Origin: Faecalibacterium sp. An121
GTDB taxonomy: Bacteria; Bacillota; Clostridia; Oscillospirales; Ruminococcaceae
Reading direction: 5' to 3'
Assembly (NCBI RefSeq): GCF_002160915.1
Contig: NZ_NFLM01000002.1
Location: forward strand, 62,001 to 126,000
DNA length: 64,000 nucleotides
The notes beneath the pieces are model-generated. The model saw only the letters and a program-made list of their open reading frames with translations. It was not told the DNA's origin and did no database searches. Made by a program: the position numbers and the translations under genes. Positions 7,420-62,221 of the stretch are shown one piece after another. The stretch's first letter is position 1; the number at the start of each line of letters is the position of its first letter.

Positions 7420-10400
7420 TCATGACTCCTCCGCAATAGGCTCACCCGGATCAAGCAAACCAAAGTATTTTTCAAAGAAAGTTTTCAGCTTTTCAATAAC
7501 AGTTTGTTTCTTCTTATCTCGTGGACTCCCGCCGCCAAAACGTGAGACCGGAGGCATCATTTGATCTATATCTGTTCCAGTCGTTTTTAATACACCGTCA
7601 CGGAACGCATTGGACATAAACTTACAGGTTTCTTTCGGTTTAAGTTTTTCTTCTTGGATGAGGGTCTGGATATCTTTCTGCCGCTGCTGGCGGACAAACT
7701 TCTGCCAGTCTGCGCTGACATTGGTACTGGCATTGATCGTCTCCAGGAACTGCTCGATCAATTCTTTCTTGGAGCGCAGCTGCAGACTGGAACGGATGGC
7801 CTTATCAATGGCCACCAGAATTTCCTTATCCTTGCAGTTGTCCTTTCGATACTTCTCCACCAGCACCAGAATGTAGTCAATGTTGACCTCCACCTGCTTG
7901 ACCAGTTCCATCTCAAAAACAACATCATCCATGATACTGTCTTTGTCGCCGGGCTTGGGCTTGATCTCCTCGTATACGTCGTGGTATGTACCGGTATAGT
8001 CCTGAAAATCGATCTCGGACAGAATCTCATGCCCCACAAAACGATCAAACGCAGACAAGATATTCCGTAGCCGCAGAATGTTGCCGAACAGAACGATGAA
8101 ATCCTTTTTGTTTTGCTCTCCCAGAATGGGCTGTCCCAGCGGGAAGCGCTCCATCAGCTCCTCGATTCGCTGCTTATACCCCTTCTGTTCCTTGCCCTTG
8201 TCGTCGGTGTAGCCATAATAGTAATCTTCATAGGACTTCAGCAGGACGATGCCGCCCGCATCCTTATTGCCAAACAGCGCGATGGCATCATTGGTTTCTT
8301 TTTCCAGATCCCGGAAACAGACAATATTGCCGAAGGTTTTGACCGAATTCAGAATACGGTTGGTCCGGGAAAATGCTTGGATCAGGCCATGCATCTTCAG
8401 ATTTTTGTCTACCCAAAGGGTATTCAAGGTGGTGGCGTCAAAGCCAGTCAGGAACATATTGACCACGAGCAGAAGATCCACTTCCCGCTTTTTCACCCGG
8501 TTGGAGAGATCTTTGTAATAATCCTGGAATCCCCTACTGGAGCTGTCATAATTGGTCTTGAAGATTTTGTTATAGTCGCCAATGGCCATGTCCAGGAAAT
8601 CTCTGGAACTCTGATCCAGCAGATCTGTTTCAAAGCCTTCCTCGGCCAGCATACCGTCTGCAGGATCTTCTTCGTTGGCCGCATAGGAGAAAATGGTGGC
8701 AATGGTCAGGTCCCGATGCCGCTGAGCGATCTGCTTTTTCAGTTCCAGATAATACTTTTTGCAGACAGGAATGGAACTGACTGCAAAGATGGAATTAAAT
8801 CCATTCACCCGCTGACCTTTCAAGCTGTACCAGGAATTCCGCATGGTCTTTTGATCAAAGTGATCCAGAATATATGTTACCACTTCTGAGATACGCTCCG
8901 GTGAGGACAACGCTTCCTCGGTGTCGATGGCGGTCACCTGCTTATCCCGGCCGGTATCCTTCTGTTTCATGGTGTTGATGTAATCAATGCGGAAGGGCAG
9001 CACATTGCCATCGTTGATAGCATCCACGATGGTATAGGTGTGCAGTTTCTCTCCAAATGCTTGGGCAGTGGTTTTCAAATGGGGGTTGCCGCCGCTGGCA
9101 GCATTCTTGGACATGATGGGCGTGCCGGTAAAGCCAAAAATATGGTAGTTTCTGAAATACCGGTCCACCTTGATGTTCCTGCCGCCCTTTTTGATGACGC
9201 CCCCTACGATGCGGGTGTGCATATCGCCAAACTGGCTGCGGTGGCACTCATCGAATACCAAAACAATGTGCTTATCCCGGACGGGATGGTTCGGGTTCTT
9301 AGTGATGAACACATCCAGCTTCTGGATGGTGGTGACAATGATGCGGTAAGGGTGGAAATTGCCCTTTTCGTCCCGATCCTCCAGCTGGCGCTGCAGCACC
9401 GCAGTGCTGCGGTTGCCGTTGGCCGCGCCCTTCTCGAACCGGTCGTATTCCTTGATGGTCTGGTAGTCCAGGTCCTTGCGGTCTACCACAAACAGCACCT
9501 TGTCAATGTAGGGCAGGGCCGTGGCAAGCTGCGCCGTCTTGAAGGAAGTCAGGGTTTTGCCGCTGCCTGTGGTGTGCCAGATGTAGCCGCCGGCCTCCAG
9601 GGTGCCGGTTTTCTTATAGTTGGTGGATACTTCGATCCGGTTCAAGATCCGCTCGGTGGCTACAATCTGATAGGGCCGCATCACCAGCAGAAGATTTTCC
9701 GAAGTGAACACGCAATACCGGGTCAGGATGTTCAGCAGCGTATGCCGGGCAAAAAAGGTCTTGGTGAAGTCCACCAGATCCGGGATGGTTTGATTGTTGG
9801 CGTCCGCCCAATAAGAAGTAAATTCAAAGCTGTTGGAGGTCTTTTTGCTGCGGTTCCGGGCAGATTTGTCCTGCTCCCGGATGTGGCTGTCCCGGGTTGT
9901 ATTGGAATAGTACTTGGTGTGGGTGCCGTTGGAAATGACGAAGATATGCACATACTCATACAGCCCGCAGCCAGCCCAGAAGCTGTCCCGCTGGTACCGG
10001 TTGATCTGGTTGAAGGCTTCTTTGAGAGCCACGCCCCGGCGTTTCAGCTCCACATGGACCAGAGGCAGACCATTCACCAGAATGGTCACATCGTACCGGG
10101 TATCGTGGCTGCCGCCGCTCTCCTCATACTGGTTGATGACCTGCAAGAAGTTATTGTGGATGTTCTTCTTGTCGATGAGGGAAACATTCATAGTTGTGCC
10201 GTCCTCGCGGGTGAGGTTCTGCACAAAATCTTCCTGGATCATCCGGGTCTTTTCCACGATGCCATCGTTGGCGTTGGCCAGCTTGGTCTTGAAAAAGCCG
10301 TCCCATTCCCGGTCGGTAAAGCTGAAATGATTGAGCCTTTCCAGCTGACGGCGGAGATTAGCCACCAGGTCCGCCTCGCTGTGGATGGTCACATATTCGT

Positions 10401-10542
10401 AACCCTGCTCCCCCAGCATCTTGATGAAGGCCGCTTCCAGCGCCGCCTCACTCTGGTAGGCATCGGAGCGCTTGGTCTGGGGTTCGTATTCTGTTACTAC
10501 AGTACTTTCGCTGGAGGACAGTACAAGGTTATAGGTGCTCAC
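7420..10542 (-). CDS. hsdR: type I restriction endonuclease subunit R
   Basis: The 1040-residue motor and nuclease subunit of a type I restriction-modification enzyme, which translocates DNA and cuts it far from the recognition site when the site is unmethylated. The N-terminal PD-(D/E)xK nuclease shows Asp151 in RYDVTILVNG and Glu165/Lys167 in HVELKRRG. The helicase has Walker A HTTGSGKT (323-330) and DECH in VFDECHRSQFGD, with later SF2 motifs such as FTGTP and QAFSRTNR. Length is normal. The GTG at 10542 is preceded by AAAGGAGG and lies 15 bp after the hsdS' segment, so it is the last gene of the hsdM-hsdS-hsdS'-hsdR operon. All catalytic residues are present. Confidence 0.96.
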   Translation of the reverse strand: MSTYNLVLSSSESTVVTEYEPQTKRSDAYQSEAALEAAFIKMLGEQGYEYVTIHSEADLVANLRRQLERLNHFSFTDREWDGFFKTKLANANDGIVEKTRMIQEDFVQNLTREDGTTMNVSLIDKKNIHNNFLQVINQYEESGGSHDTRYDVTILVNGLPLVHVELKRRGVALKEAFNQINRYQRDSFWAGCGLYEYVHIFVISNGTHTKYYSNTTRDSHIREQDKSARNRSKKTSNSFEFTSYWADANNQTIPDLVDFTKTFFARHTLLNILTRYCVFTSENLLLVMRPYQIVATERILNRIEVSTNYKKTGTLEAGGYIWHTTGSGKTLTSFKTAQLATALPYIDKVLFVVDRKDLDYQTIKEYDRFEKGAANGNRSTAVLQRQLEDRDEKGNFHPYRIIVTTIQKLDVFITKNPNHPVRDKHIVLVFDECHRSQFGDMHTRIVGGVIKKGGRNIKVDRYFRNYHIFGFTGTPIMSKNAASGGNPHLKTTAQAFGEKLHTYTIVDAINDGNVLPFRIDYINTMKQKDTGRDKQVTAIDTEEALSSPERISEVVTYILDHFDQKTMRNSWYSLKGQRVNGFNSIFAVSSIPVCKKYYLELKKQIAQRHRDLTIATIFSYAANEEDPADGMLAEEGFETDLLDQSSRDFLDMAIGDYNKIFKTNYDSSSRGFQDYYKDLSNRVKKREVDLLLVVNMFLTGFDATTLNTLWVDKNLKMHGLIQAFSRTNRILNSVKTFGNIVCFRDLEKETNDAIALFGNKDAGGIVLLKSYEDYYYGYTDDKGKEQKGYKQRIEELMERFPLGQPILGEQNKKDFIVLFGNILRLRNILSAFDRFVGHEILSEIDFQDYTGTYHDVYEEIKPKPGDKDSIMDDVVFEMELVKQVEVNIDYILVLVEKYRKDNCKDKEILVAIDKAIRSSLQLRSKKELIEQFLETINASTNVSADWQKFVRQQRQKDIQTLIQEEKLKPKETCKFMSNAFRDGVLKTTGTDIDQMMPPVSRFGGGSPRDKKKQTVIEKLKTFFEKYFGLLDPGEPIAEES

Positions 10543-10557
10543 AGGCTCCTCCTTTCG

Positions 10558-11157
10558 TCAGGTTAAAGGCTTAAAAGTCAATAGCTTGTCCCGGTAGTAT
10601 TCATATTGTTTTTTCCGGGCTTCAATCTCAGCGGGCAGGCCACTGGTCAAATCGTTGCAAAGGTTATCAAAGCGGTCAAGCATTTCAACTATTTCCTGCT
10701 GTTTTTGAAGTGCAGGAAGCGGAATGATTGTATTTAATATCAAAGATGAGTTTAAGTCTCCTCGCGCTCCTTGCTTCTTGGTGAGCAATTCATCATAACT
10801 TCGGCATACACAATAATAAATATAGCGATATGAAGCTACTCTATCATCAATTTCAAGATTCAAGCAATGCTGATTTGTTGTTGCCCGGATCTTATTAATT
10901 GCACACCTACCGGCAGATGCTCCTGAGATGGCAATTATTACACAGTTTTCAGGAATCCACTTTGCGGCTGTTTCAATAACTGCTTTCTCAGTAATATAGC
11001 TATCAACCTCTGTAATCTCATTAAATTTTACATCTTGTGTCCTAATCCATGGAATCCTGCCACCTTCATAATAATTCCGGTTGGATTTGCTCGGTGTGGC
11101 ACCAGAACTTCTGTGAGCAACAACCTCAGCTAATTCAACATAAACAACCCCAAACAC
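10558..11157 (-). CDS. hsdS: third HsdS target-recognition segment, currently out of frame with hsdS
   Basis: A 199-residue half-HsdS: one target-recognition domain (LAEVVAHRSSGATPSK to TIIPLPALQKQQ) followed by a conserved coiled-coil spacer ending EIEARKKQYEYYRDKLLTF. The same spacer ends both halves of the hsdS gene just upstream. The only initiator here is a GTG at 11157 without a convincing ribosome binding site, but the frame is open upstream through the whole TCTG repeat. It is therefore probably expressed mainly as a fusion to hsdS when the repeat number changes: adding one 4-bp unit, or losing two, puts the two frames together. As an independent polypeptide it could also act as a half-subunit that dimerises, as known for truncated HsdS proteins. 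Confidence 0.85.
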   Translation of the reverse strand: MFGVVYVELAEVVAHRSSGATPSKSNRNYYEGGRIPWIRTQDVKFNEITEVDSYITEKAVIETAAKWIPENCVIIAISGASAGRCAINKIRATTNQHCLNLEIDDRVASYRYIYYCVCRSYDELLTKKQGARGDLNSSLILNTIIPLPALQKQQEIVEMLDRFDNLCNDLTSGLPAEIEARKKQYEYYRDKLLTFKPLT

Positions 11158-11174
11158 ATACTGAATGAGCTTAA

Positions 11175-12485
<1,311 letters not shown>

Positions 12486-12493
12486 ACCCACAC

Positions 12494-14056
12494 TCACCCT
12501 TCGATCTCCCCGATGATCTTTGCAATCTCATCCCGCAGCACCTGCTCTCGGGCCACGATCTGTTCGATCTCGGCGTTGAGCTTGACGATGTCGATGACCT
12601 CCCGGGTGTCTTCCGGCTGCACATAAGTGCTGACCGAGAGGTTATATTCGTTCTGGGCGATCTCCTCGTAGGGGACGCAGCGAGCAAAATGGTCTACATC
12701 TGCCCGGGAGACAAACTCGTCCACGATGCGGCGGATGTTCTCCTCGGTCAGCTTGTTGTTATTGGTCACCTTGATGCACTCCGCCGAAGCGTCAATAAAA
12801 AGGGTGCGGTTGTCCGCCTTGCTCTTTTTCAGCACTATGATGCAGGTGGCAATGGAGGTGCCGTAGAACAGGTTGCTGGGCAGCTGGATAATGCAGTCAA
12901 TGAAGTTGTTGTCGATCAGGTACTGGCGGATTTTCTTTTCCGCACCGCCACGGTACATGATTCCGGGGAAACAGACAATGGCAGCCGTGCCATTGGTAGC
13001 CAGCCAGGCCAGGGAGTGCATGATAAAGGCCAAATCCGCCTTGGACTTGGGTGCAAGGACGCCGGCTGGCGAGAATCGTGGGTCGTTGATCAAAACCGGG
13101 TTGCCGTCCCCCTCCCATTTGATGGAATAGGGAGGATTGGAGACGATGACCTCAAAGGGTTCATCGTCCCAGTGCTGGGGATTGACAAGGGTATCCTCGT
13201 GGGCGATATCGAACTTGTCGTAGTCGATATCATGCAGGAACATATTGATCCGACAAAGGTTATAGGTAGTCAGATTGATTTCCTGGCCGAAAAAGCCTTG
13301 GCGGACGTTATCCTTACCAAGGATTTTGGCCGCTTTCAGCAGCAGTGACCCTGAACCGCAGGCAGGGTCATAGACCTTATTGACCTCGGTTTTGCCTGCA
13401 ACTGCCATCCGGGTAAGCAGTTCAGAAACCTCCTGCGGTGTAAAAAATTCACCACCGCTTTTACCAGCATTGGATGCGTACATACCCATCAGGTACTCGT
13501 AGGCATCGCCGAACGCGTCGATGGAGTTGTCCTTGTAATCCCCCAGTTTCATATCTGCAATGCCGTTCATCAGCTTAACAAGATTGGCATTTCGCTTGGC
13601 CACTGTAGCTCCAAGTTTGTTGCTGTTAACATCAAGGTCATCAAACAGTCCGGCAAAATTGTCCTCACTGGGACTGCCTTTGGCCGATTCCTCAATATGG
13701 CGGAAGGCTGCTTCCAGGGTCATGTTCAGGTTTTCATCTTTTCCTGCCCGTGCTCTCACATTGCAGAACAACTCCGAAGGAACCATGAAAAATCCTTTTG
13801 TGTTAATCATGTCCTTGCGGGCCTGTTCAGCATCCTCATCCGACAACTGCGTATAATCGAATCCGTCGTTGCCTGCCTCCCATTCTCCCTCGTTGATATA
13901 GTTGGTCAAGTTCTCAGAAATATAGCGGTAAAACATCATGCCTAGTACATAGGCCTTAAAATCCCAACCGTCCACACTACCCCGTAGTGCATCGGCAATG
14001 GCCCAGATGGCGCGGTGCAGTTCGTCCCTTTCTTGTTCCTTCTTCATATCGACCAT
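12494..14056 (-). CDS. hsdM: type I restriction-modification DNA methyltransferase subunit
   Basis: The 520-residue N6-adenine methyltransferase subunit, which with two recognition half-sites of HsdS methylates host DNA. The S-adenosylmethionine motif DPACGSG is at 230-236 and the catalytic NPPY at 307-310; the N-terminal helical domain ([15 protein letters not shown]) and the C-terminal segment typical of HsdM are present. The ATG at 14056 has AAGGAG 10 bases upstream. It is the first gene of the operon; a plausible promoter lies at 14378-14406, leaving a 320-base leader. Confidence 0.96.
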
Positions 14057-52402: not shown

Positions 52403-53671
52403 TCACCGGTTCTGCCGCATCACGTCGAACATCTCCTTGATCTCGCTGATGGTATACCCGCGCTCCCGCATGGTCCGTGCAAAGTCGGTGTAATCCATGT
52501 CGCTGCCTGCGGTGGGCAGGACGGTGCTCTGGGAGCCGCTGCTCTTGCCGGCGCTCTGGCTGCGGCTGCCCGTGCCCTTTGTGCCGCTGCTGCGGCTGGC
52601 CGCCCGCATACTGGCTGCGGCCGCCTCCTGCTGCGCCTGGGACCGCTTGAACGCCCATTCCTCCTGGGCCAGGGCCAGCTTCTGGCTCGTGATGTCGTTG
52701 TCGAACCGCTGCTGGGCCAAAGCGTCCTGATACTGCCGCTCGGCGCTCTGGGATTCGTAGGCCTGCTGGGCCAGACCGTCCTGGCGCAGCTGCTCCTGCA
52801 TCTGCCGCTCCCACGCAGCGTCGGCCTGGGCCGCCTCGTAATCCCGGTTGTCGGCGTACATGCTGTACCCGGTCTGTGCCAGCCCGCTCAGCAGCGAACC
52901 CAGACCCGTGGTGCCGCTGATGGCCAGCTGCGCGATGTTGCCGATCAGCCCCAGCACGCTCATCACATTGTTGAATCCCTGCTGCTTGCGCGCTGCCTGC
53001 TCCTGCTCCTCCTGGCTGTAATAGCCGTACAGGGTGTCCAGGCTGGACAGGTAATCGTTGTAGCGGGCGTAGTCCTGGGCCTGGGCGGATTCGTAGGCGT
53101 CCTGCTTTTGCTCCAGCTGGGTGTAGTAGTCGTCCAGCTGCCGCTGGTACAGATCCTGCGCGTTCTGTTCCTGCTGGTTCAGGGCGTCCAGCTGATCCAT
53201 CAGCAGATCCCCTTCGCTGGTATAACTGTCCAGCGCCAGGTTGTACAGGGTGGGGATGATGCTGTTCAGCCCGTTCATCTGCTGCTGGTAGGCCTGCTGG
53301 GCGGCGCTGGTGGCGTAGCTGGAGCCATAGCCCCCGGTCAGGGCGGCCGCCTGGGCCGCGGCGTCCGTGCTGGCGTCGTGGGCATTCTGGCGGTAGCTCT
53401 GGGCGTACTGGCGGTAAATGGGGTCGGCCGCGTGGTCGTAGCTGAAGGTTTTCTGGCTCAGCGCCTTGTCCAGCAGCCCGTCGATCTGCCCCTGGTACTG
53501 GCTCTGGTAGGCCCCGGGCCGGCTGGACTGCCACTGCTCCAGGGCGTCGGCGGCCTGGGTCACCGTCTCGCTGGGACGGTACTGGGCTGCGGCCAGGGCG
53601 TTCTGCACCGCGTCCTTGCTGTTCAGGCCGCTGGTGCTGTATTGGATGGTGGTTTTCTTTTTGGTCGCCAT
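52403..53671 (-). CDS. phage virion protein, Gln-rich coiled coil (putative internal/ejection protein)
   Basis: A 422-residue protein rich in Gln, Ala and Tyr with long coiled-coil stretches (EQQAYQQQMNGL, QLEQKQDAYESAQAQ) and a central glycine/hydrophobic segment (VMSVLGLIGNIAQLAISGTTGLGSLLSGL, about 235-265) that could insert into membranes. It is the last gene of the phage block, a position where podoviruses encode ejection proteins. I know no characterised homologue. ATG at 53671 after AAAGGAGG. Confidence 0.6.
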   Translation of the reverse strand: MATKKKTTIQYSTSGLNSKDAVQNALAAAQYRPSETVTQAADALEQWQSSRPGAYQSQYQGQIDGLLDKALSQKTFSYDHAADPIYRQYAQSYRQNAHDASTDAAAQAAALTGGYGSSYATSAAQQAYQQQMNGLNSIIPTLYNLALDSYTSEGDLLMDQLDALNQQEQNAQDLYQRQLDDYYTQLEQKQDAYESAQAQDYARYNDYLSSLDTLYGYYSQEEQEQAARKQQGFNNVMSVLGLIGNIAQLAISGTTGLGSLLSGLAQTGYSMYADNRDYEAAQADAAWERQMQEQLRQDGLAQQAYESQSAERQYQDALAQQRFDNDITSQKLALAQEEWAFKRSQAQQEAAAASMRAASRSSGTKGTGSRSQSAGKSSGSQSTVLPTAGSDMDYTDFARTMRERGYTISEIKEMFDVMRQNR

Positions 53672-53686
53672 CGGGCTCCTCCTTTC

Positions 53687-53887
53687 TCATTCGGCGCCGG
53701 CGTCCGTCCCCTCCAGGCGGCTGCGCAGCCCCTCCGAAAGGTTCTCGGTGTCGATGTTGCTCAATACGTACTGCAGCTGTTCCTGCATCTGATACAAATA
53801 GTTTCGTATCACCCGGGCGTCCTCCGGGTCCATCCGGCTGCTCAGCCGGGGCAGGCCCAGTTTGCTCAGCCCTGCAATGCTTGCCAT
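53687..53887 (-). CDS. small phage protein
   Basis: A 66-residue protein (MASIAGLSKLGLPRLSSRMD..., helical middle VIRNYLYQMQEQLQYVLSNI). AAAGGAGG precedes the ATG at 53887. It lies between two virion genes; function unknown, possibly a chaperone or connector component. Confidence 0.6.
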   Translation of the reverse strand: MASIAGLSKLGLPRLSSRMDPEDARVIRNYLYQMQEQLQYVLSNIDTENLSEGLRSRLEGTDAGAE

Positions 53888-53904
53888 GGCTTTCCTCCTT
53901 TCTC

Positions 53905-55776
53905 TCACAGGCCGCCCCTGGCCGCGGCAAAGGTGCGGCTGGCGCTGCGCAGGGTCAGCTGACCGGCGCCGGTCAGCCGCAGGCGCATCGTGTCATGCCG
54001 CCGGGGCGTCAGGGGGATGTACAGCTTTTCCTTGGCGGTGCGGGCAGCCGCGCTGGCCAGCTTTTCCCAGGGGCCGCCGTCGCAGCTGGCCCACACCGTC
54101 AGCGTGGAACCGGGCTGCGCGTCCAGCCGCAGGGTCAGCCTGCACAGGTACTGGTCCTCGTTTTCCTCCAGGCCGATGTCCCCTGTCTCCAGGGCGAAGG
54201 GGATGCTCTCCTCGGCCTCTCCCGCCCCGCCCGCCAGGACGGCGTCCTCCTCCCGGGCCGGACCGGCCGCCCACAGGGACTGCCCGTCCCAGAGATACAG
54301 CTGCCGCCCGCTGGACAGCAGCTCCAGCTGGCCGCTGGGTCCGGGGTCCTCCTGGTGCCACAGCCCCTTTTCGGTGTCGTACACCAGCAGCCGGGCGCCG
54401 CTGTCCCGGGCCAGGTAGAGATAATACCGCCCGTCCAGCCAGCCGCCGGCGGCCCGCTGGGCGCCCGCCAGACCGCTGGGGTCCAGCATCCCCGACACCT
54501 TCACCGGCAGGCTGCCGTCCCAGGCCATCACCCCTTCCGGGGAGAGATAGTACAGCGTCTCGTTGATGACGCACAGGCTCTCGGCTGCGTATTTGGCCAC
54601 GCCCCGGCACCGCAGGGAGCTGAGCTGGAAATCGGAGGGCTTGGAGCCGCACAGCTTGTGCAGGGTGTTCTCCTTGAAGAACAGCACCGAGCCCATACAG
54701 GTGGCCGCGCCGGTAAAGCTGCCGTCGCTGCCCACCGTCACCGCATAGCTGTCGGCGGCGGTGTTCCGGTAGGAAAACCAGTTGGTGGGGTCCCCCAGCT
54801 TGCAGGCATAGATCACATTTTCGCCGCTGCTGCAGCCCCACACCCGGTTGTCGCACTCGGTCAGATAGTCCAGGTCGGGCACCCGCCGGGTGCAGCTCAC
54901 TGCCTGCTCCGCCGTATAGGTCAGGGTGCTTTTGCCGTCCAGACTGCTCCAGGAGGCCGACTGCCCGGTCTGGACGATGCGGCCATAGAAGTGCTCCCCG
55001 CCCGGGGTGATCCGCACCATCAGCCAGTCCTCTCCCGCATCGTAGAGCACCTTTTCCCCGTCCAGGTCATCGCACAGGCCCGCCGCAGCGGCCGCCGTCC
55101 CCTGTATCGTCACGGTGTCCCACACGGCAAACGCTTCACCGATGCCGTCGGAGCGGATCTTGCAGTGATCCAGGGTCACCGCCGTCCACCGCTCCAGCGA
55201 GCTGCTGTATACTTCCAGGGTGCCGTCGGCGTTCCACGGGCTGGACTGGCTCACCACCTTCAGGAACACTTCTCCGTCCTGGGGGTCTTCGGGTTCCTGG
55301 GTGCCCCAGCTGCCCACCGTGTAGGTGTTGCCCTCTCCGTCGCAGGGCACCATCTCCACCGACGCCCCGCCGCCGCTCCAGGCCGCGCCCAGGGGCTTCA
55401 GGGTGCCGCCGGCTGTGTCAAAGGCCGCCTTGTCCGGGAAGATCAGCACCCGGGTGCCAAGACCCACCAGGGTCTTTTTCCCCTCCGACAGCACCCCGGT
55501 CAAGACGGTGGGTTCCTCCCCGCTGTCGGGGATGTAGGTCAGGCCGCCGCCGCTCACCAGCACAAAGCCATTCAGATGGTACATCCCGTCCACGTTGGCC
55601 AGGGTCCGCAGCTTCCGCCGGGGCGTCCGGGTGGACAGAGCCGGAAAGTCCCGGCTGGAGAAGTTCTCCCCCGCCGCGTATTCCGCCTCGCTGCACCCGA
55701 AAGTTTCGTTCAGCCCACCGAACACCCGCAGCTGCCGGCGGCTGTTTTTGAGGTCGGGCAATTCGGGCAGATACAT
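53905..55776 (-). CDS. phage tail/neck protein with beta-propeller-like repeats
   Basis: A 623-residue beta-rich protein starting MYLPELPDLKNSRRQLRVFGGLNETF. Repeated beta segments (GMYHLNGFVLVSGGGLTYIP, RVLIFPD, VLFFKENTLHKLCG) suggest a propeller or solenoid. In position and N-terminal style it resembles the P22 gp10-type DNA-stabilisation/tail hub proteins of podoviruses, from memory only. ATG at 55776 after GAGGTGAGAGG. Confidence 0.6.
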   Translation of the reverse strand: MYLPELPDLKNSRRQLRVFGGLNETFGCSEAEYAAGENFSSRDFPALSTRTPRRKLRTLANVDGMYHLNGFVLVSGGGLTYIPDSGEEPTVLTGVLSEGKKTLVGLGTRVLIFPDKAAFDTAGGTLKPLGAAWSGGGASVEMVPCDGEGNTYTVGSWGTQEPEDPQDGEVFLKVVSQSSPWNADGTLEVYSSSLERWTAVTLDHCKIRSDGIGEAFAVWDTVTIQGTAAAAAGLCDDLDGEKVLYDAGEDWLMVRITPGGEHFYGRIVQTGQSASWSSLDGKSTLTYTAEQAVSCTRRVPDLDYLTECDNRVWGCSSGENVIYACKLGDPTNWFSYRNTAADSYAVTVGSDGSFTGAATCMGSVLFFKENTLHKLCGSKPSDFQLSSLRCRGVAKYAAESLCVINETLYYLSPEGVMAWDGSLPVKVSGMLDPSGLAGAQRAAGGWLDGRYYLYLARDSGARLLVYDTEKGLWHQEDPGPSGQLELLSSGRQLYLWDGQSLWAAGPAREEDAVLAGGAGEAEESIPFALETGDIGLEENEDQYLCRLTLRLDAQPGSTLTVWASCDGGPWEKLASAAARTAKEKLYIPLTPRRHDTMRLRLTGAGQLTLRSASRTFAAARGGL

Positions 55777-55788
55777 CCTCTCACCTCC

Positions 55789-56169
55789 TCACCAGCGCAT
55801 CCGCCGCACCGGGGGCGGACAGCTGCGCCGCAGCCACGCCGCAAACTCCCCCAGGATCGCGTTGCACCGGGTCATCGCACCCGCATAGCGGTCGTTTTCC
55901 CCCAAAGCCGCGTCGATCATGGCGCACAGGTAGTGGGGATACATCCCGTCAAAAGGGAAGGGCACCAGCAGTACGGCGCTGTCCTCAAGCCCTTCTGCCC
56001 ACAGCTTGTCTGCGCCCACTTCCCCGTAGTCCGCCGCGCCGCCGGGCTCCACCACCCGCGCCCGGATCTCTCCATCCTGCCGGCGCAGCCATTCCTTCAT
56101 CTCGTTTTCGCCCACGCTGCAGCCGGGGCGCAGGGCCCTGGCCCGGGCCACCGCTTCGCCTGCTGTCAT
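55789..56169 (-). CDS. phage head-tail connector-like protein
   Basis: A 126-residue mostly helical protein (MTAGEAVARARALRPGCSVGENEMKEWLRRQDGEI...). Its place between the capsid-side genes and the tail protein and its size fit a head completion/adaptor protein. AAAGGAGG precedes the ATG at 56169. Confidence 0.6.
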   Translation of the reverse strand: MTAGEAVARARALRPGCSVGENEMKEWLRRQDGEIRARVVEPGGAADYGEVGADKLWAEGLEDSAVLLVPFPFDGMYPHYLCAMIDAALGENDRYAGAMTRCNAILGEFAAWLRRSCPPPVRRMRW

Positions 56170-56234
56170 CTGCAAGCCTCCTTTCTCTGTCACAAAAGGC
56201 CCGGCGCTCAGGCTGCTGAACGCCGGGCCGCCGG

Positions 56235-56450
56235 TCACTTGCCCGCTGCGCCCTCAGCCGCCGCGATGCGGGCCGCAGTCAGGTCGTCCTGCTGCTGGCT
56301 GTGCTCCAGCACCTCGGCCACCGAGCGGGGCACTTCCACCTCCACGCCCCTGCGGATCTTGTAATTGACGCCGTTCACGCTGACAAACAGATCGCTTTTG
56401 TAGCGCCCGTTGTCCTTGAACAGCCGGATACGGACCTTTTCTTCTTCCAT
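56235..56450 (-). CDS. small phage protein downstream of the capsid
   Basis: A 71-residue protein with a small beta domain (VRIRLFKDNGRYKSDLFVSVNGVNYKI) and an Ala/Gln tail. Such proteins are common after N4-gp56-type capsid genes; function unknown. AAAGGAG upstream of ATG 56450. Confidence 0.6.
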   Translation of the reverse strand: MEEEKVRIRLFKDNGRYKSDLFVSVNGVNYKIRRGVEVEVPRSVAEVLEHSQQQDDLTAARIAAAEGAAGK

Positions 56451-56465
56451 CTTCCTGCTCCTTTC

Positions 56466-57512
56466 TCAGTTGGCTGCGGCCGAGGCCGAGTAGCTCGACA
56501 GGCTCTCGATCCGCACCATGTACTGCTCCACCAGCCGCTCGGCGGCGCGCATTCCCTTCCAGCCCACGCTGGCGCGCTGGTTCAGGGGGTCGTCGCCATA
56601 GCCCAGCTGCTTGACGATGTGCTCCAGGCCCCCGCCCTCCAGCTCGGTAACGCCGTAGGCATGGGCGCCCAGCACCAGGGTGCCAAACACCGCATAGTAG
56701 CCGTCGCCGTTGGCCGGGCAGGTCTCGTCCTTCCAGATCTTGGCCTCGCTGGTCTCAATGAAGCGGATGTTGCCCAATTTGCCGATCTCGCCCCGGTACA
56801 TGGCCTCGGGGTCGGCGTACTTGTGCACCTCGATCCACTCCTTGCAGGTCTTGAGGTCATAGGCGGCGTAGGGGTGGATGATGGCCACATAGCTGTCCCC
56901 CAGGGTGTCGGCGTTCATGGCGCCCAGCTGAGCTGCCGCCTGGAAAAACAGTTTGGGGGTCAGCTTGCAGTCAAGGGTCAGGGCGGTGCGGCTGGTCACC
57001 GCCGTCTCGGCGCCGTCCGCACCCACCTTGGGCGCATAGATCACGTTGGTGCCGCCCGCCAGCACGTCCCGGGTCAGGGAGTCCAGGGTGCGGCCCGCCT
57101 GGCTGGCCAGGATACGGGTGGCCTGCACCACGTTGTTGTCGATGGCGGTCATCTGCAGCACGTCGGTCAGGGGGGTCCAGCCGCCGTACTGGTGCAGATC
57201 CGCCGTGATGGTGGAGACGGTCAGGGCCTGGCCGTCGGGGGTCACGCCCTCCTGCAGGGGGACGGTGGCCTTGGGCAGGCTGTCGTACTTGCGGAACTCA
57301 ATGGTCTTGCCGCCGCCCACCGGCATGGGGTAGTAGTCCGCAAACTGGTCGTGTACCAGCCGGGGCTCGGCCTGGTCGATGAGGCGCTTCTCATAAAAGA
57401 CCTTCATCTCGTTGGTCATGGTGCCGGTGGTGTTCAGCAGTTTGCTGTCCGTGCCCGAAGCGCCGTCCTCCGCAAACAGCTGCAAGTCAAAGATGGCCTT
57501 GTAATCTTTCAT
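56466..57512 (-). CDS. major capsid protein, N4-gp56 family
   Basis: A 348-residue capsid protein. Blocks typical of the N4-gp56 family are MTNEMKVFYEKRLIDQAEP at the front, PVGGGKTIEFRKYDSLPKATVPLQEGVTPDG and the HK97-like core with YVAIIHPYAAYDLK. Members are found in podoviruses of Firmicutes. ATG at 57512 after AAAGGA; a longer frame to 57575 has no site. It follows the protease/scaffold gene, as usual. Confidence 0.85.
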   Translation of the reverse strand: MKDYKAIFDLQLFAEDGASGTDSKLLNTTGTMTNEMKVFYEKRLIDQAEPRLVHDQFADYYPMPVGGGKTIEFRKYDSLPKATVPLQEGVTPDGQALTVSTITADLHQYGGWTPLTDVLQMTAIDNNVVQATRILASQAGRTLDSLTRDVLAGGTNVIYAPKVGADGAETAVTSRTALTLDCKLTPKLFFQAAAQLGAMNADTLGDSYVAIIHPYAAYDLKTCKEWIEVHKYADPEAMYRGEIGKLGNIRFIETSEAKIWKDETCPANGDGYYAVFGTLVLGAHAYGVTELEGGGLEHIVKQLGYGDDPLNQRASVGWKGMRAAERLVEQYMVRIESLSSYSASAAAN

Positions 57513-57571
57513 CTGTCCTGTTCCTTTCTCTTGTGTATGTGGTTCCAGCCCGCAGGCCGGCCGTACCTTGT

Positions 57572-58492
57572 TCACAGCCGGATCTTGGCGCCCCGCATCA
57601 CTTCCCGCTCGATGGCTTCCCGCTGGGCCCGGCTCATCCGGCTGACATCGGGACTGGTGGTGGCCGCGCCGGTGGGGCGCAGGCCGTTTTCGGCCGGACG
57701 GACGCCCCGCTCCCGGACCCGGTTCACGACGCCCCGTTCCACGGCCCGGGCGGTGCTCTCCATCAGCCGGTCGTAGTTGGCTGCCCGGTAGGCGTCCCGC
57801 ATCCGCATCCCCGGCATCCGCATCATCCGGCGCATATCGGGGCTTTTCAGCGCCTCCCGGAAGGAATACCCCGGGTCATACCGGCGCATCTCCGCCTCCT
57901 CCCGGGCCCATCTGCGGTGCAGCTCGTGGATCATCCGCAAAAAGGCGCCTGCCTCCCCGATGCCCAGCATGGAAGCGGGCCGCGGCTCCGGGGCCTCCTG
58001 TTTTTCTTTTGCCCCGGCAGGCTCCGGAGCCGCAGGTTCCGGGCTGCGCCGCCCGCGGCGTCCCATGGTCCCTTCCGCCATCGCCTGGCGCTTCTGCTCC
58101 CGGCTCAGGGCGGGGCCCTGCCCGAACATCTGCAGATCCACCATGCAGGCTTCGCCCTCCCGGCTGGTGTCCGCATAGCGCAGGTTGTCGGGGTAGCGCT
58201 CGGCCAGCAGGGCCAGGCCCGCCTTGACCAGGGCAAAGCCCCCTGCCACTTCCGGTCCCTCGGCCCCGGGGCCGGCTGTCACCGACACCCGCGGCCCGTC
58301 CGGCCCGTCGGACGCGGCGCTCTCCACACCGGCCCGGTCCGCCGTCATCCACACCAGGGCCTGCATCAGGATGCTGGCGCCGGCGCAGACAATGTCCTGC
58401 CCTGCGGGGGCGTAGTTGGCGTGGCCCTTCACGCTCAGCCGGCGGGTCACGCCGTCCGGGCCTTCCAGCTCACTGTAAACTGCTTTGATCAT
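57572..58492 (-). CDS. Prp-type cysteine protease fused to a scaffold-like domain
   Basis: A 306-residue protein. Residues 1-115 match the ribosomal-processing cysteine protease Prp: VKGHANYAPAGQDIVCAGASILMQAL contains the catalytic His24 and Cys36. Cellular Prp trims ribosomal protein L27 and, in Staphylococcus, also phage scaffold and capsid proteins. Residues 130-306 are charged and helical (ARMRRYDP..., EAEMRRYD, AIEREVMRG), like a scaffold. Located between portal and capsid, where phages keep the prohead protease and scaffold. It overlaps the portal stop (ATGA). The fusion is inferred from sequence only. Confidence 0.75.
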   Translation of the reverse strand: MIKAVYSELEGPDGVTRRLSVKGHANYAPAGQDIVCAGASILMQALVWMTADRAGVESAASDGPDGPRVSVTAGPGAEGPEVAGGFALVKAGLALLAERYPDNLRYADTSREGEACMVDLQMFGQGPALSREQKRQAMAEGTMGRRGRRSPEPAAPEPAGAKEKQEAPEPRPASMLGIGEAGAFLRMIHELHRRWAREEAEMRRYDPGYSFREALKSPDMRRMMRMPGMRMRDAYRAANYDRLMESTARAVERGVVNRVRERGVRPAENGLRPTGAATTSPDVSRMSRAQREAIEREVMRGAKIRL

Positions 58493-60276
58493 ACTTGCTG
58501 CCTCCTTGTGTTGGTGTTCATGGCCCGGCGTGCCGCGGCGTCGGGAGCGGCGGGCCTTGCAGCCCGCACCGGCTCCGGCAGGCCCTTCCGGGCCTTCACC
58601 AGCTGCGCCAAACGGGTCAGCTGCTGCTGGGCCGCCTGCAGCTGCCTGGCGAGGGTGCCGTTCTGCCGCACCCGCTGGCGCACCTTCTCGATCCCTTCAA
58701 AGTCCATCATCTCCAGAGCCGCCAGGGCGGCGTCCGCGTTGGCGGGGTTGAAGAAGCCCAGCTGATAGCACTCCTTGGCCGTCTCGTTCTGGGTCAAGCG
58801 GCTGAAGGTGGATTTTTTGGCCGCCGAGATGGTGATGTCGAACACCGGCTCCCGGCTGCCCAGTTCCACCCCGGCCAGGTCTTTCACCGGCACAGGCCGC
58901 AGCATGGCGGCGCTGAAGGGCAGGTAGACATTCTGCCCTCTCTCCCCCGTGATCCGGAAGACCCGCTCCTCATCGTAGAACTGCCGCATCAGGTCGATGA
59001 CCAGGTAACACTCCTGGGCAAAGGCCCGGTAGGCGCTCTTGATCATATCCCGGCTCAGCTTGCTGCCCGCCTCCTGCAGGGCCGCGATGGCCGAAGCCGC
59101 CGTCACGCCCCCCGAAGTGCCGCCCTGGCTGATGTCCCGGTTGCCGCTGATCTCCTTCAGCTCGTCCACACGGCTGTTGCGGTAGGTGATGGAGCTGGGC
59201 TGCAGCCCGGCGGTCTGCAGCTGGTGGAAACTGTCGTCGCTCAGCCGCCCCGACACATGGATGATGTCCCTGCTCAGGTCGGCCAGCTCTTCCTCGTTCA
59301 CCCCCGCCCCGTCGCTGAGGACATACCGCTGCTTGGAAGCCAGCAGCACGTTCTCGTCCATGGCCTGGTTGATCCGGTCGATGGAGTTCTGGCAGTCCTT
59401 CATCACGTCGATGTACCCGAACCCCGCCGGGCTGTCCTCCTCCTGGAACAGCACGTCGAACACAAAGGGATACTTGCCGTGGTCATAAAAGCCGCGCCGG
59501 GCCAGCCGGGGATCGTTCTCGCTGGCGTACAGGGGCACCCCGTTGCAGAACTTGCAGTAGTGCACCAGCATCCGGCCGCCCGGCCCCGGCTTTTTGTAAT
59601 ACCAGTCCACCACCACGCTCTTGTGGGTGGTGTCGATGCTGTCGTCGTGGATGTACCGCGCCGCGTCGATGGTGCCGCCGGTGCGTCCTTTCAGCTGGGG
59701 CCAGCGCTGGGCCAGCTGGTCCGAGTCCTCCAGGCTCAGGCTGAAAAAGTGGGGGCTGTCCTGGATGTCCATGACGCCCGGCTCCCAGTACAGCATCAGG
59801 ATGTTCATCGAGCGGATGGCGATCTCTCCCAGGCCCCCCTGGGCCGAGGGGTCCCAGAAGATCCCCTTGACCCCCGTGCCCTGCTTGAGCTTGCGCCACC
59901 AGCTGTCCGAATAGACCTGCTCGTAGCCCGCCTGCTCCAGCACCACCGGCAGCACGCTGGACAGGGTGCGCGCGGCGGTCTCATCGTCGGCGGCCCGGGG
60001 CATCACATTGGGCTCGGGGTAGTTGTCCATGGCGTCGGCGTGCTTGCTGGCGATGGAGTTGAACAGCCACCCGCTGGAGGGCTGGGGCTTTGCCTCCATC
60101 ATCCGGTTTTTGTACTGCTTCCAGTGCGCCATCCTGAACCACAGCTCATTGTCGATCAGCCGCCGGTCCAAAGCGGCCTTGCCCGCCTTGTAGCGGTGCA
60201 GCGTGCGCTCGGCCTGGGCCACCTGTTCCGTCCCGATGACCGGCGCCGGCTGCAAAATATCTTCCTGTTCGCGCAT
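58489..60276 (-). CDS. phage portal protein
   Basis: A 595-residue portal of podovirus type. The N-terminal half has HWKQYKNRMMEAKPQPSSGWLFNSIASKHADAMDNYPEP, followed by WWRKLKQGTGVKGIFWDPSAQGG; the C-terminal part is a long helical region (ETAKECYQLGFFNPANADAALAAL). It forms the DNA entry ring. ATG at 60276 after GAGGTGAAAG; coupled to the protease/scaffold gene. Confidence 0.85.
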   Translation of the reverse strand: MREQEDILQPAPVIGTEQVAQAERTLHRYKAGKAALDRRLIDNELWFRMAHWKQYKNRMMEAKPQPSSGWLFNSIASKHADAMDNYPEPNVMPRAADDETAARTLSSVLPVVLEQAGYEQVYSDSWWRKLKQGTGVKGIFWDPSAQGGLGEIAIRSMNILMLYWEPGVMDIQDSPHFFSLSLEDSDQLAQRWPQLKGRTGGTIDAARYIHDDSIDTTHKSVVVDWYYKKPGPGGRMLVHYCKFCNGVPLYASENDPRLARRGFYDHGKYPFVFDVLFQEEDSPAGFGYIDVMKDCQNSIDRINQAMDENVLLASKQRYVLSDGAGVNEEELADLSRDIIHVSGRLSDDSFHQLQTAGLQPSSITYRNSRVDELKEISGNRDISQGGTSGGVTAASAIAALQEAGSKLSRDMIKSAYRAFAQECYLVIDLMRQFYDEERVFRITGERGQNVYLPFSAAMLRPVPVKDLAGVELGSREPVFDITISAAKKSTFSRLTQNETAKECYQLGFFNPANADAALAALEMMDFEGIEKVRQRVRQNGTLARQLQAAQQQLTRLAQLVKARKGLPEPVRAARPAAPDAAARRAMNTNTRRQQV

Positions 60277-60287
60277 TTTCTTTCACC

Positions 60288-61736
60288 TCAGATCCTGTAA
60301 AATACCGCTTTCCTGCCGGGCCGCAGGTCCAGCGGGTCGTCGGGCGCCGCCGCCGGGCAGGGCCGCGCCGGCGGCGTGATGGGGTTTTCCATCAGGACAT
60401 ACCGGCACTCGTCGTAGATGTGATCCTCCTGCCGGGTATCCACGTCCTCCACATTGCTTTCGTCGTACACCAGCGCCGGGATGGTCCGCACAAAGTGCTT
60501 GCAGGTGCGGAACACCTGGAACATGGGCCGGCCCTCCCCGTCGAAGGCCAGGCGGTAATGCAGCTGCATCTTGCCGGCCAGGCGGGTGTTGTCCGCCGCC
60601 GTCCAGTGCAGGCGGCCGGGGCTGCGGGCCATCATGTCCGCGATGCTCTCCCCCCGGCTCTCGTCAAAGATGGCCGGGTCCGCCACCCCGCGGATCACCC
60701 GTCCCCGCAGCTGGGGGTCGTTCTGCTCCGCCTCCCGGATCCGCCGGGCCTGCTCCACCGGGTCCAGACGCAGCCCTTCGTTGGGCCTGCCGGTGCTGCC
60801 GTACAGCTCCTTGATCCGGTAGATCCGCCCTTCCTCGTCCACCGCGTACCACCCCACCGAGAAGGGCCTGGAAAACCCGAAGTCGTAGCCGCGCCAGATC
60901 CGCCAGTGGGCCGGGATGGCAAAGGGTTCGATCACATGGGTCCAGCGCTGGTCCCGGTAGTGTTCGGGGTCGTTGCGCCACTCGGTGAACACCTGCCCCG
61001 AAAAGCTGTCCCAGCTGCCATACAGCAGCGCCTGCTTTTCCGCTTCGGGCAGGGCCGCCAGGTTGGCCAGATAGTCCGGGTCGTTGGCCAGCAGGGCCGG
61101 GTTATCGAACACGGTGGACTGGATGAACACCCTGGCCCGGGTGTAGGTGCGCTGGGTGCCGTCCGGCATCCTCACCTTATATTCCTCCAGGATGGGGGTG
61201 CCCGGCGGGGCCGGCGTGATGAACCGCTCCTTCACCCAGCCGTGCCCCACCCCGCCGGGGTTGGTGGTGGCGCGCAGGTAGACCCGGGTGCCGGGTCCTG
61301 TGGGACGGTTGCGGCTCATCATATAGCTGTACTCCTCCCACGCAAAGTGGGTCAGCTCGTCAAAGCCGATGAAGTCGAAGGCTTTGCCCTGGTAGTTGGT
61401 GCGGTCCTTGGTGTACTGCATGGCGCCAAAGTAGATCTTGGCCCCGCTGGGGAACACCCACACATGGGCGGTGGCGTTGTACTGCGCCCCCGGGAAGGCC
61501 CGCGGATAATAGTTCATGCTCTTGTCCACCAGGTCCGTCAGCTGGGGGAAGGTCTTGCGCAGGATCAGCCCCCGGTAATGGGGGATGTGGGCCTGCCGCA
61601 GCGCCTCCACCACCAGTGCATCGCTCTTGCCGCCCCCCGCCGCGCCTCCATACAGGGCTTCGGGTTCGCTGCGGGCCATGAAAGCCCTCTGCCGGGGCTG
61701 GGGCTTCCAGATCACCGGTGCGTGCCGGTCTGTCAA
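60288..61736 (-). CDS. terL: phage terminase large subunit
   Basis: A 482-residue DNA-packaging motor. Walker A-like YGGAAGGGKSDA (29-40), Walker B in FDFIGFDELTHF, coupling motif LRATTNPGG, and a C-terminal nuclease region (GYDFGFSRPFSVGWYAVD with the metal-binding Asp, later GVADPAIFDE). The TTG at 61736 is chosen because AAAGGAGG ends 7 bases before it; it overlaps the stop of the preceding small gene (TTGA). Confidence 0.92.
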   Translation of the reverse strand: MTDRHAPVIWKPQPRQRAFMARSEPEALYGGAAGGGKSDALVVEALRQAHIPHYRGLILRKTFPQLTDLVDKSMNYYPRAFPGAQYNATAHVWVFPSGAKIYFGAMQYTKDRTNYQGKAFDFIGFDELTHFAWEEYSYMMSRNRPTGPGTRVYLRATTNPGGVGHGWVKERFITPAPPGTPILEEYKVRMPDGTQRTYTRARVFIQSTVFDNPALLANDPDYLANLAALPEAEKQALLYGSWDSFSGQVFTEWRNDPEHYRDQRWTHVIEPFAIPAHWRIWRGYDFGFSRPFSVGWYAVDEEGRIYRIKELYGSTGRPNEGLRLDPVEQARRIREAEQNDPQLRGRVIRGVADPAIFDESRGESIADMMARSPGRLHWTAADNTRLAGKMQLHYRLAFDGEGRPMFQVFRTCKHFVRTIPALVYDESNVEDVDTRQEDHIYDECRYVLMENPITPPARPCPAAAPDDPLDLRPGRKAVFYRI

Positions 61737-62002
61737 TCCGATTCCTCCTTTCCTGCGCAGGCTTCGGGCAAAAGCACGACGCCGCATTCTTTCCGGCCCT
61801 CCTCCGGGCTCTGTTCGCCCAGGCTCCTGGCCACGGCTGCCAGATCTTTCAGCACGGCGGTGATCTCCTTCAGGGCCTTGATGTCGCCGCCCTGCGTCTT
61901 GCGCCGGCCGGCCAGGTCTTTTGCCTCCTGGGCCACAAGGCCGCTCAAAAGGTCGGTGGCCCGCTGCAATTCCGCCAGGCCGCCGCTTTTCTTCCTCGCC
62001 AT
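61733..62002 (-). CDS. small phage protein, putative terminase small subunit
   Basis: An 89-residue helical protein (MARKKSGGLAELQRATDLLSGLVAQEAKDLAGRRK...) directly upstream of terL with overlapping stop/start. Position suggests a small terminase; there is no clear helix-turn-helix. AAAGGAGG precedes ATG 62002. It is the first gene of the phage block; no strong promoter is visible upstream. Confidence 0.55.
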   Translation of the reverse strand: MARKKSGGLAELQRATDLLSGLVAQEAKDLAGRRKTQGGDIKALKEITAVLKDLAAVARSLGEQSPEEGRKECGVVLLPEACAGKEESD

Positions 62003-62221
62003 CCCTTTCCTCCTTTCTGCCGTTTCCCGGCTGCCTGGCCACAGGATACCATCTTTTGGCGGCCGGGCACAGTGTGTCCTTTCGGGGCTTTTTCTCTGCG
62101 CCAAAAACCACCCTTTTCTTTTCCAAAAGCACAGATCCCGCCCCCACTTTCCTCTTTGGCTCTGTTGTGCTACAATAGATTCAAAGCACCCCCACCTTTT
62201 TTGATAAGGAGGACCCTTTCC

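Follow-up and report, generated by a model that had tools for sequence, protein, structure and literature searches.

The closest described counterpart of the locus analysed here is FpGTA, the gene transfer agent (GTA) of Faecalibacterium (Borodovich et al. 2026, Nat Commun, January 2026; PMC12946183), which is the first GTA reported from the gut. According to the same account, FpGTA I is a 10.5 kb operon of ten open reading frames (ORFs) found in 12/12 Faecalibacterium genomes, and the particles of F. prausnitzii ATCC 27766 measure ~40 nm and hold ~9 kb of DNA; packaged lengths of 8.4–8.9 kb are reported. Proteomics of this strain detected the operon I proteins together with those of operon II (baseplate, fibre, receptor-binding protein, holin and endolysin), which was not detected in seven strains. 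The present analysis concerns a block of phage-type genes at positions 52403–62002 of a 64,000-nucleotide stretch of Faecalibacterium sp. An121 (contig NZ_NFLM01000002.1, positions 62,001–126,000; the whole stretch is called the window below), which is a member of this known, recently published system. The block is very probably FpGTA I of this species, known here from its genes, i.e. the head-and-tail operon of a genus-wide domesticated short-tailed phage that works as a GTA, and its products very likely assemble into small particles filled with random fragments of host DNA.

The likeness to FpGTA comprises the genes of operon I and their order, the number of ten ORFs, a short small terminase subunit (TerS) without detectable DNA-binding domain, the genus-wide occurrence and the presence of operon II on the same chromosome. 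For the published FpGTA strains ATCC 27768 (locus L115) and APC923/51-1 (L114), the alignment covers all ten genes in unchanged order. In contrast to ATCC 27766, which has holin and endolysin within operon II, the lysis genes of An121 are situated at a third locus; moreover, operon II was found here beside the glg operon in species beyond the strains of PMC12946183. This third locus, a common promoter, a candidate switch, sister phages and an undivided basal form of the cluster are added here as predictions. Promoter, third locus and switch are not described in the sections of the FpGTA publication covered here, and a word search of the paper, supplements aside, for 'promoter', 'motif' and 'chicken' returned 0 hits each. 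A more distant parallel is provided by RcGTA and CcGTA of Alphaproteobacteria, which likewise combine a domesticated phage head-tail cluster with accessory genes elsewhere and dedicated activators. However, these agents are reported to be controlled by GafA or GafYZ (PMC11150451) and stem from another phage lineage, whereas the Faecalibacterium system has a short tail and, as candidate control, an S24 repressor with a homologue of a phage late activator; the comparison is one of function, not of sequence.

Ten intact minus-strand genes fill the 9.6 kb block (G000:C12:114403–124002 in a genome of 2.71 Mb on 62 contigs) with almost no gaps. An earlier note on this DNA had counted nine intact, tightly packed genes from a TerS-like to an ejection-like one; intactness, packing and coordinates hold, but the count is ten, the gene easiest to overlook being the small one at 53687–53887. 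The upper end at 62002 given in that note coincides exactly with the gene of the 89-residue TerS-like protein (61733–62002), whose short form is kept in 30 genus rows. TerS gave no family match and no DNA-binding domain was detected in it, the family searches having been made on the 187-residue open frame. In order of transcription it is followed by the large terminase TerL (60288–61736; phrog_979, 2.9e-62; Terminase_6N, 7e-16), which probably starts at a TTG overlapping the TerS stop, with homologues aligning from residues 1–8 of the TTG version, and by a P22-like portal protein (58489–60276; phrog_156, 1.1e-75; P22_portal, 2.7e-28). The next gene (57572–58492, 306 residues) encodes a Prp-type cysteine protease (Peptidase_Prp, 7.1e-12, residues 9–104) fused to a scaffold-like region (phrog_13908, residues 192–305). 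The major capsid protein (56466–57512) matches phrog_1357 (2.2e-84) and Phage_capsid_4 and, weakly, solved phage capsids, and precedes a conserved head protein of 71 residues (56235–56450; phrog_15239, 1.5e-23).

The remaining four genes encode the adaptor, the tail nozzle, a protein of 66 residues and an ejection-like protein. The predicted fold of the head-tail adaptor (55789–56169, 126 residues), which has a mean predicted local distance difference test score (pLDDT) of 88, resembles P22 gp4, Sf6 gp7 and the N4 and SU10 adaptors with Z scores of 9–10. The nozzle protein (53905–55776, 623 residues, pLDDT 89) adopts a predicted β-rich fold similar to P22 gp10. Its top 20 Foldseek matches are all nozzles or tails of short-tailed phages, the best at 1.4e-17, and the PHROGs label 'internal virion protein' was rejected in favour of these structural matches. 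Both folds are of podovirus type, the character suggested in the earlier note. The 66-residue protein (53687–53887) corresponds to the N-terminus of a 248–251-residue protein in basal lineages. The last gene product (52403–53671, 422 residues, Gln/Ala-rich) gave no family match in the family searches and is assigned as ejection-like by its orthologous position and similarity across the genus.

The gene order is the same in other Faecalibacterium loci (tblastn), far beyond chance. The portal is present in 31/31 Faecalibacterium species genomes and in 24/297 genomes sampled across the family, five of these 24 being Faecalibacterium. Only one portal is encoded in the genome of the window, and its closest named relatives belong to Faecalibacterium, chicken-type lineages first (e.g. 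An122, 86%); nine GenBank faecal records labelled 'Bacteriophage sp.' match it at 42–77%. In 22 genomes each of the ten genes is called as a single open frame, and contig ends truncate most of the remainder; partial contigs (G004, G009 and G025) entered the counts only with the genes present on them. In the complete genome G028 the Prp-scaffold gene (L144, 7390–8477) is split into two frames, be it by frameshift, error or variation. Ratios of nonsynonymous to synonymous substitution rates (dN/dS, omega) range from 0.00 to 0.39 with a median of 0.10 (94 gene-pair comparisons, pairs being counted when dS > 0.05), indicating purifying selection on all ten genes; for the 71-residue head protein omega is ≤0.05. 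The comparison of relatives for conservation and dN/dS that the earlier note had proposed thereby turned out positive.

Across 20 genomes, the tree of six GTA proteins and a host tree of five glg-locus proteins have 13/17 splits in common, and 12/13 well-supported host splits are recovered in the GTA tree. With shuffled labels, 0.14 splits are common on average and 2 at maximum. From the trees G024 (a 6.2 kb fragment of unclear type) was excluded. In the comparison of open frames, G020 (L152) was read separately with its own codon model. Judged by its tree, which follows that of the host, operon I is vertically inherited. A single fixed site across the genus was considered for operon I and rejected, the flanks agreeing only within subclades. 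As in GTAs, a structural cluster without integrase or replication genes is thus fixed, vertically inherited and under purifying selection, which supports the gene-transfer-agent-like particle among the readings offered in the earlier note.

Two genomes, G011 (L151 and L157) and G015 (L149 and L158), hold in addition to the GTA a complete-looking prophage of the same lineage. These sister prophages display the same order of head and tail genes, with TerL, portal and capsid 65–76% identical to those of the GTA. They differ by a longer TerS (233–236 residues, with weak N-terminal helix-turn-helix (HTH) matches in the G011 protein), a longer scaffold (450–472 residues), a giant protein of 3006–3506 residues and further early genes, the latter two being absent from the GTA. 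Two ejection proteins, baseplate-like, M15-like endolysin and holin-like genes and, upstream, many small early genes complete the prophages. No homology between the 89-residue TerS and the prophage TerS was detectable (hhalign probability 0.1), and the GTA protein is therefore described as short and showing no HTH, not as having lost one. A rooted tree of 65 loci resolves three clades: the crown GTAs (support 0.99), the prophages (1.00) and four basal Faecalibacterium GTAs (1.00). In basal G026 and G019 the cluster extends further, with genes for a tail protein (DUF859 in G026), an ejection protein and an endolysin (GH25 in G026) as well as a holin-like gene; in basal G020 the tail and ejection genes are followed by host genes. 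An XRE-type regulator lies upstream of the cluster in G026, G018 and G019.

Upstream of TerS, a promoter-like element (AAAGGACACACTG-N21-TATCCT; 62043–62082, minus strand) is found that is common to operon I, FpGTA II and the lysis locus. Its 48-nt consensus, AAAGgaCaCACTG-N21-TATcCT, precedes TerS in 26/29 loci of the genus and ends 28–42 nt before the TerS start; the three loci without it are all basal, and the basal lineages lack the shared element. The same element is situated before the baseplate gene in 14/20 FpGTA II loci. Within the 2.71 Mb genome of An121 the strict pattern has 2 matches, at operons I and II, and a fixed-spacing pattern with ≤3 mismatches has 3 (operon I, operon II and C16:20535–20574), compared with 0 for the reversed control. 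The match on C16 lies 38 bp upstream of an endolysin gene that was located independently by protein search, and in this genome the pattern accordingly marks exactly three operons, all of them assigned to the GTA. Genus-wide, the strict pattern is matched 46 times, compared with 7 times for the control, and 30 of the 46 matches lie at GTA loci (operon I 18, operon II 10, lysis 2). In the sister prophages an element of this type precedes both TerS and the baseplate gene, one of the four sites being weak; the GTA promoters thus probably descend from phage late promoters.

Three of the 46 matches precede a gene for an AAA_25 ATPase (L276 4823–6154, L279 1278–2576 and L281 2245–3663; family tested on L281), located at different chromosomal sites in three chicken-type species. 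The protein (432–472 residues; G003, G004 and G016) was considered as a core member of the regulon and rejected: its best match in An121 is 40% over part of the length and has no element. At the contig end L278 (G004:C173) a GTA-type element stands before the apparent start (14 residues) of a phage antirepressor.

The modules missing from the block are found at unlinked sites. A sister-prophage baseplate query matches 25/31 genus genomes, including C21:25480–26142 in An121. In 20/20 fetched loci, An121 included, the neighbours of the baseplate gene are glg genes together with one for a G5/3D-domain protein, and FpGTA II therefore represents a fixed site. Its cargo consists of the baseplate-like gene and a DUF6273/Hoc-like protein in chicken-type species, with fibre, M15 endolysin and holin in addition in the prausnitzii group, and of only baseplate and holin in F. 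longum CLA-AA-H243 (G012). In An121 the baseplate-like gene is followed by the DUF6273/Hoc-like gene before the contig ends; holin and endolysin were not found in this operon, C21 ending ~1 kb past the second gene, and lysis genes are also absent past operon II on the longer contigs of G016 and G023. Instead, a lysis cassette of endolysin, a 76-residue protein and an SPP1-type holin is located on C16 between MATE-like and LysR-like genes (assigned by eye), as in G003, G004, G006 and G010. We treat lysis genes outside operon II as variation within FpGTA and not as grounds for exclusion; PMC12946183 does not make their place in operon II a requirement. The absence of integrase, repressor, replication, lysis and fibre genes reported in the earlier note thus holds in and beside the block, but fibre, lysis and repressor genes exist elsewhere in the genome. 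They form fixed, unlinked chromosomal operons and not, as that note had envisaged, another locus of the same prophage; since GTAs are organised in this way, the finding speaks only in part against a particle-forming block in its own right.

In the sister prophages, the product of the gene just before TerS, 89 residues long, weakly matches DUF1492 and PHROG 248 ('transcriptional activator'). A diverged homologue is present in 28/31 genus genomes, in An121 on contig C8 with 36–41% identity. The activator gene lies beside trmO and a FeoB-associated gene in 19/20 fetched loci, sharing its operon with a small HTH gene, and an XRE-S24 repressor gene is divergent from it in 17 of those 19; the repressor is missing beside the HTH and activator genes at L368 (G014) and L379 (G007). 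The C8 repressor of An121 itself matches HTH_3 (7.7e-12) and Peptidase_S24 (1.1e-26). Between repressor and activator, two facing sigma-70-like promoters are found in 17/17 loci, with patterns that permitted variants on both the repressor and the activator side, and LexA-type boxes (GAAC-N4-GTTC) were not found in the C8 control region. In the remaining fetched locus, G018, the activator match stands next to a phage-type TerS inside a prophage, and the GTA of G018 has no element. The three genomes without an activator match (G019, G020 and G026) are also without the element.

This arrangement suggests how particle production could be switched. A CI-like S24 repressor at the separate locus C8 would keep the phage-derived late activator silent. 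Under stress, of which DNA damage is the most likely form, the repressor would be inactivated, presumably by autocleavage, and the activator freed. The C8 activator would then act as reader of the common element and switch on the unlinked operons I (the block), II (baseplate and fibre, C21) and III (endolysin and holin, C16). The terminase, with a small subunit that shows no detectable DNA-binding domain, would fill a small capsid with unselected host DNA, the cell would lyse and the released particles might deliver their DNA to a recipient. The evidence tips slightly towards this picture in its full extent: a four-locus regulon in which particle, fibre and lysis operons are joined by one phage-derived element, a domesticated late activator and an autocleavable CI-like repressor, with DNA release triggered by DNA damage, an undivided cluster in basal species, and a block in the genus g105, described below, that may be an undescribed GTA.

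Several observations weigh against the reading of the block as part of a GTA with such a regulon. The activator of An121 has no Pfam match and its PHROG match is marginal (0.029). A GTTGATT-N4-GTCAAC dyad that covers the -35 on the activator side has its strict form in 10/17 loci and not in this genome. The element at the lysis locus has an atypical -10 (GAAAAT); G025, one of six lysis loci beside a LysR gene, is without it; the strict pattern matches in just 21/31 genomes, and 13/46 genus matches lie elsewhere, six of them representing one conserved 39-nt sequence. By protein search, the lysis cassette was not found at the C16-type site in G016, G021, G022, G023 and G009. G007 and G014 have operon I, element and activator but no baseplate match, lysin match or repressor, and their operon I genes still give omega values of 0.06–0.32. 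The tree of 65 loci places the prophages between the crown and the basal GTAs, grouped with the former at a support of 0.86. This leaves a single domestication unproven; there may have been one or two. Finally, DNA delivery by FpGTA is unproven, and non-delivery is raised in the text of PMC12946183 by its authors themselves.

The last point fits a PBSX-like structural particle, with the operons kept for killing relatives or for shedding DNA that is never delivered and the packaging of host DNA being incidental, a use that we regard as rather unlikely. PBSX of Bacillus subtilis is comparable by its description, a defective-phage particle of a Gram-positive bacterium that contains host DNA, and it does not inject this DNA. 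Moreover, variation between clades is greatest at the baseplate/fibre locus, a pattern that proteins involved in targeting would be expected to show. However, purifying selection acts on terminase, portal, protease, adaptor and nozzle, and genes for packaging would be superfluous in a device used purely for killing. The same conservation refutes a decayed prophage remnant on its way out, to which the earlier note had also pointed: with integrase, replication and repressor genes lacking nearby and the split Prp-scaffold gene of G028 it retains some basis, but presence in every genus genome, low omega throughout, single open frames in 22 genomes, the conserved promoter and the splits common with the host tree render it improbable in the extreme. 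Likewise, a working prophage or satellite that mobilises itself with modules placed elsewhere is very improbable. Complete sister prophages do exist in G011 and G015, and the fibre, lysis and repressor genes of An121 are indeed elsewhere, but these parts occupy separate chromosomal sites (glg operon, MATE/LysR, trmO) that are conserved between species, the genome holds a single portal, and the GTA operons of the crown are separated from the prophages as a clade of their own. In addition, operon I alone, with the other parts unlinked, measures 9.6 kb and exceeds the 8.4–8.9 kb reported as packaged in other species (PMC12946183). A phage satellite in particular, the third reading of the earlier note, would be recognised by an integrase and hijacking of a helper capsid; here capsid, portal and terminase are supplied by the block itself, and no integrase or hijacking gene was seen. 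No att-like repeats stood out around the block, where only short imperfect repeats were found.

With regard to the switch, the locus might be a GTA in which not the C8 activator but a host sigma factor or regulator recognises the element. This is possible, though doubtful: the position of the element over the -35 and its distance of 21 bp to the -10 would also fit an alternative sigma factor, but the prophage homologue of the activator is encoded directly before TerS, where the same element is found, and genomes without activator match are without the element, the G018 match lying in a prophage and its GTA having no element.

On both flanks of the block host-type genes are situated, in agreement with the earlier note, whose terms 'glycosidase' and 'phosphatase' are labels given by eye. 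Elsewhere in the window, the region 7420–14056 has a low GC content (about 45–51%) and contains two large genes that by eye resemble type I restriction subunits. Outside Faecalibacterium, a self-contained block of ~9–10 kb is found in 3/3 genomes of the genus g105 (L226, L227 and L228, corresponding to G134, G272 and G214). It encodes a short TerS-like protein (77–84 residues), TerL, portal, scaffold, capsid, tail, a holin-like protein (by eye) and a lysin, in G134 a Peptidase_M23; no integrase was seen in these blocks. By eye, RluD-like and DUF554-like genes flank all three on one side, with RpoD-like and DnaG-like genes on the opposite side in G134 and G214. The g105 block may represent a second, undescribed GTA in another genus. 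In the genus g16 (L237 and L238), elements of ~14 kb contain XRE and ImmA/IrrE-like genes (by eye), structural genes and holin- and lysin-like genes. No integrase or replication gene was seen in them, and the tree places them as the sister group of the Faecalibacterium clade.

The sister prophages offer a rare before-and-after view of a short-tailed phage becoming a GTA, with a shorter TerS and scaffold, no giant protein and scattered operons on the GTA side. In IMG/VR the same operon is listed as a viral contig (L031, IMGVR_UViG_2788500445_000001, 9438 bp, portal 100% identical), and it may consequently be counted among the phages in viromes. Faecalibacterium belongs to the commonest bacteria of the human gut. 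If the proposed switch is right, the trigger of a gut GTA could be put to a direct test by means of a single promoter, activator and repressor.

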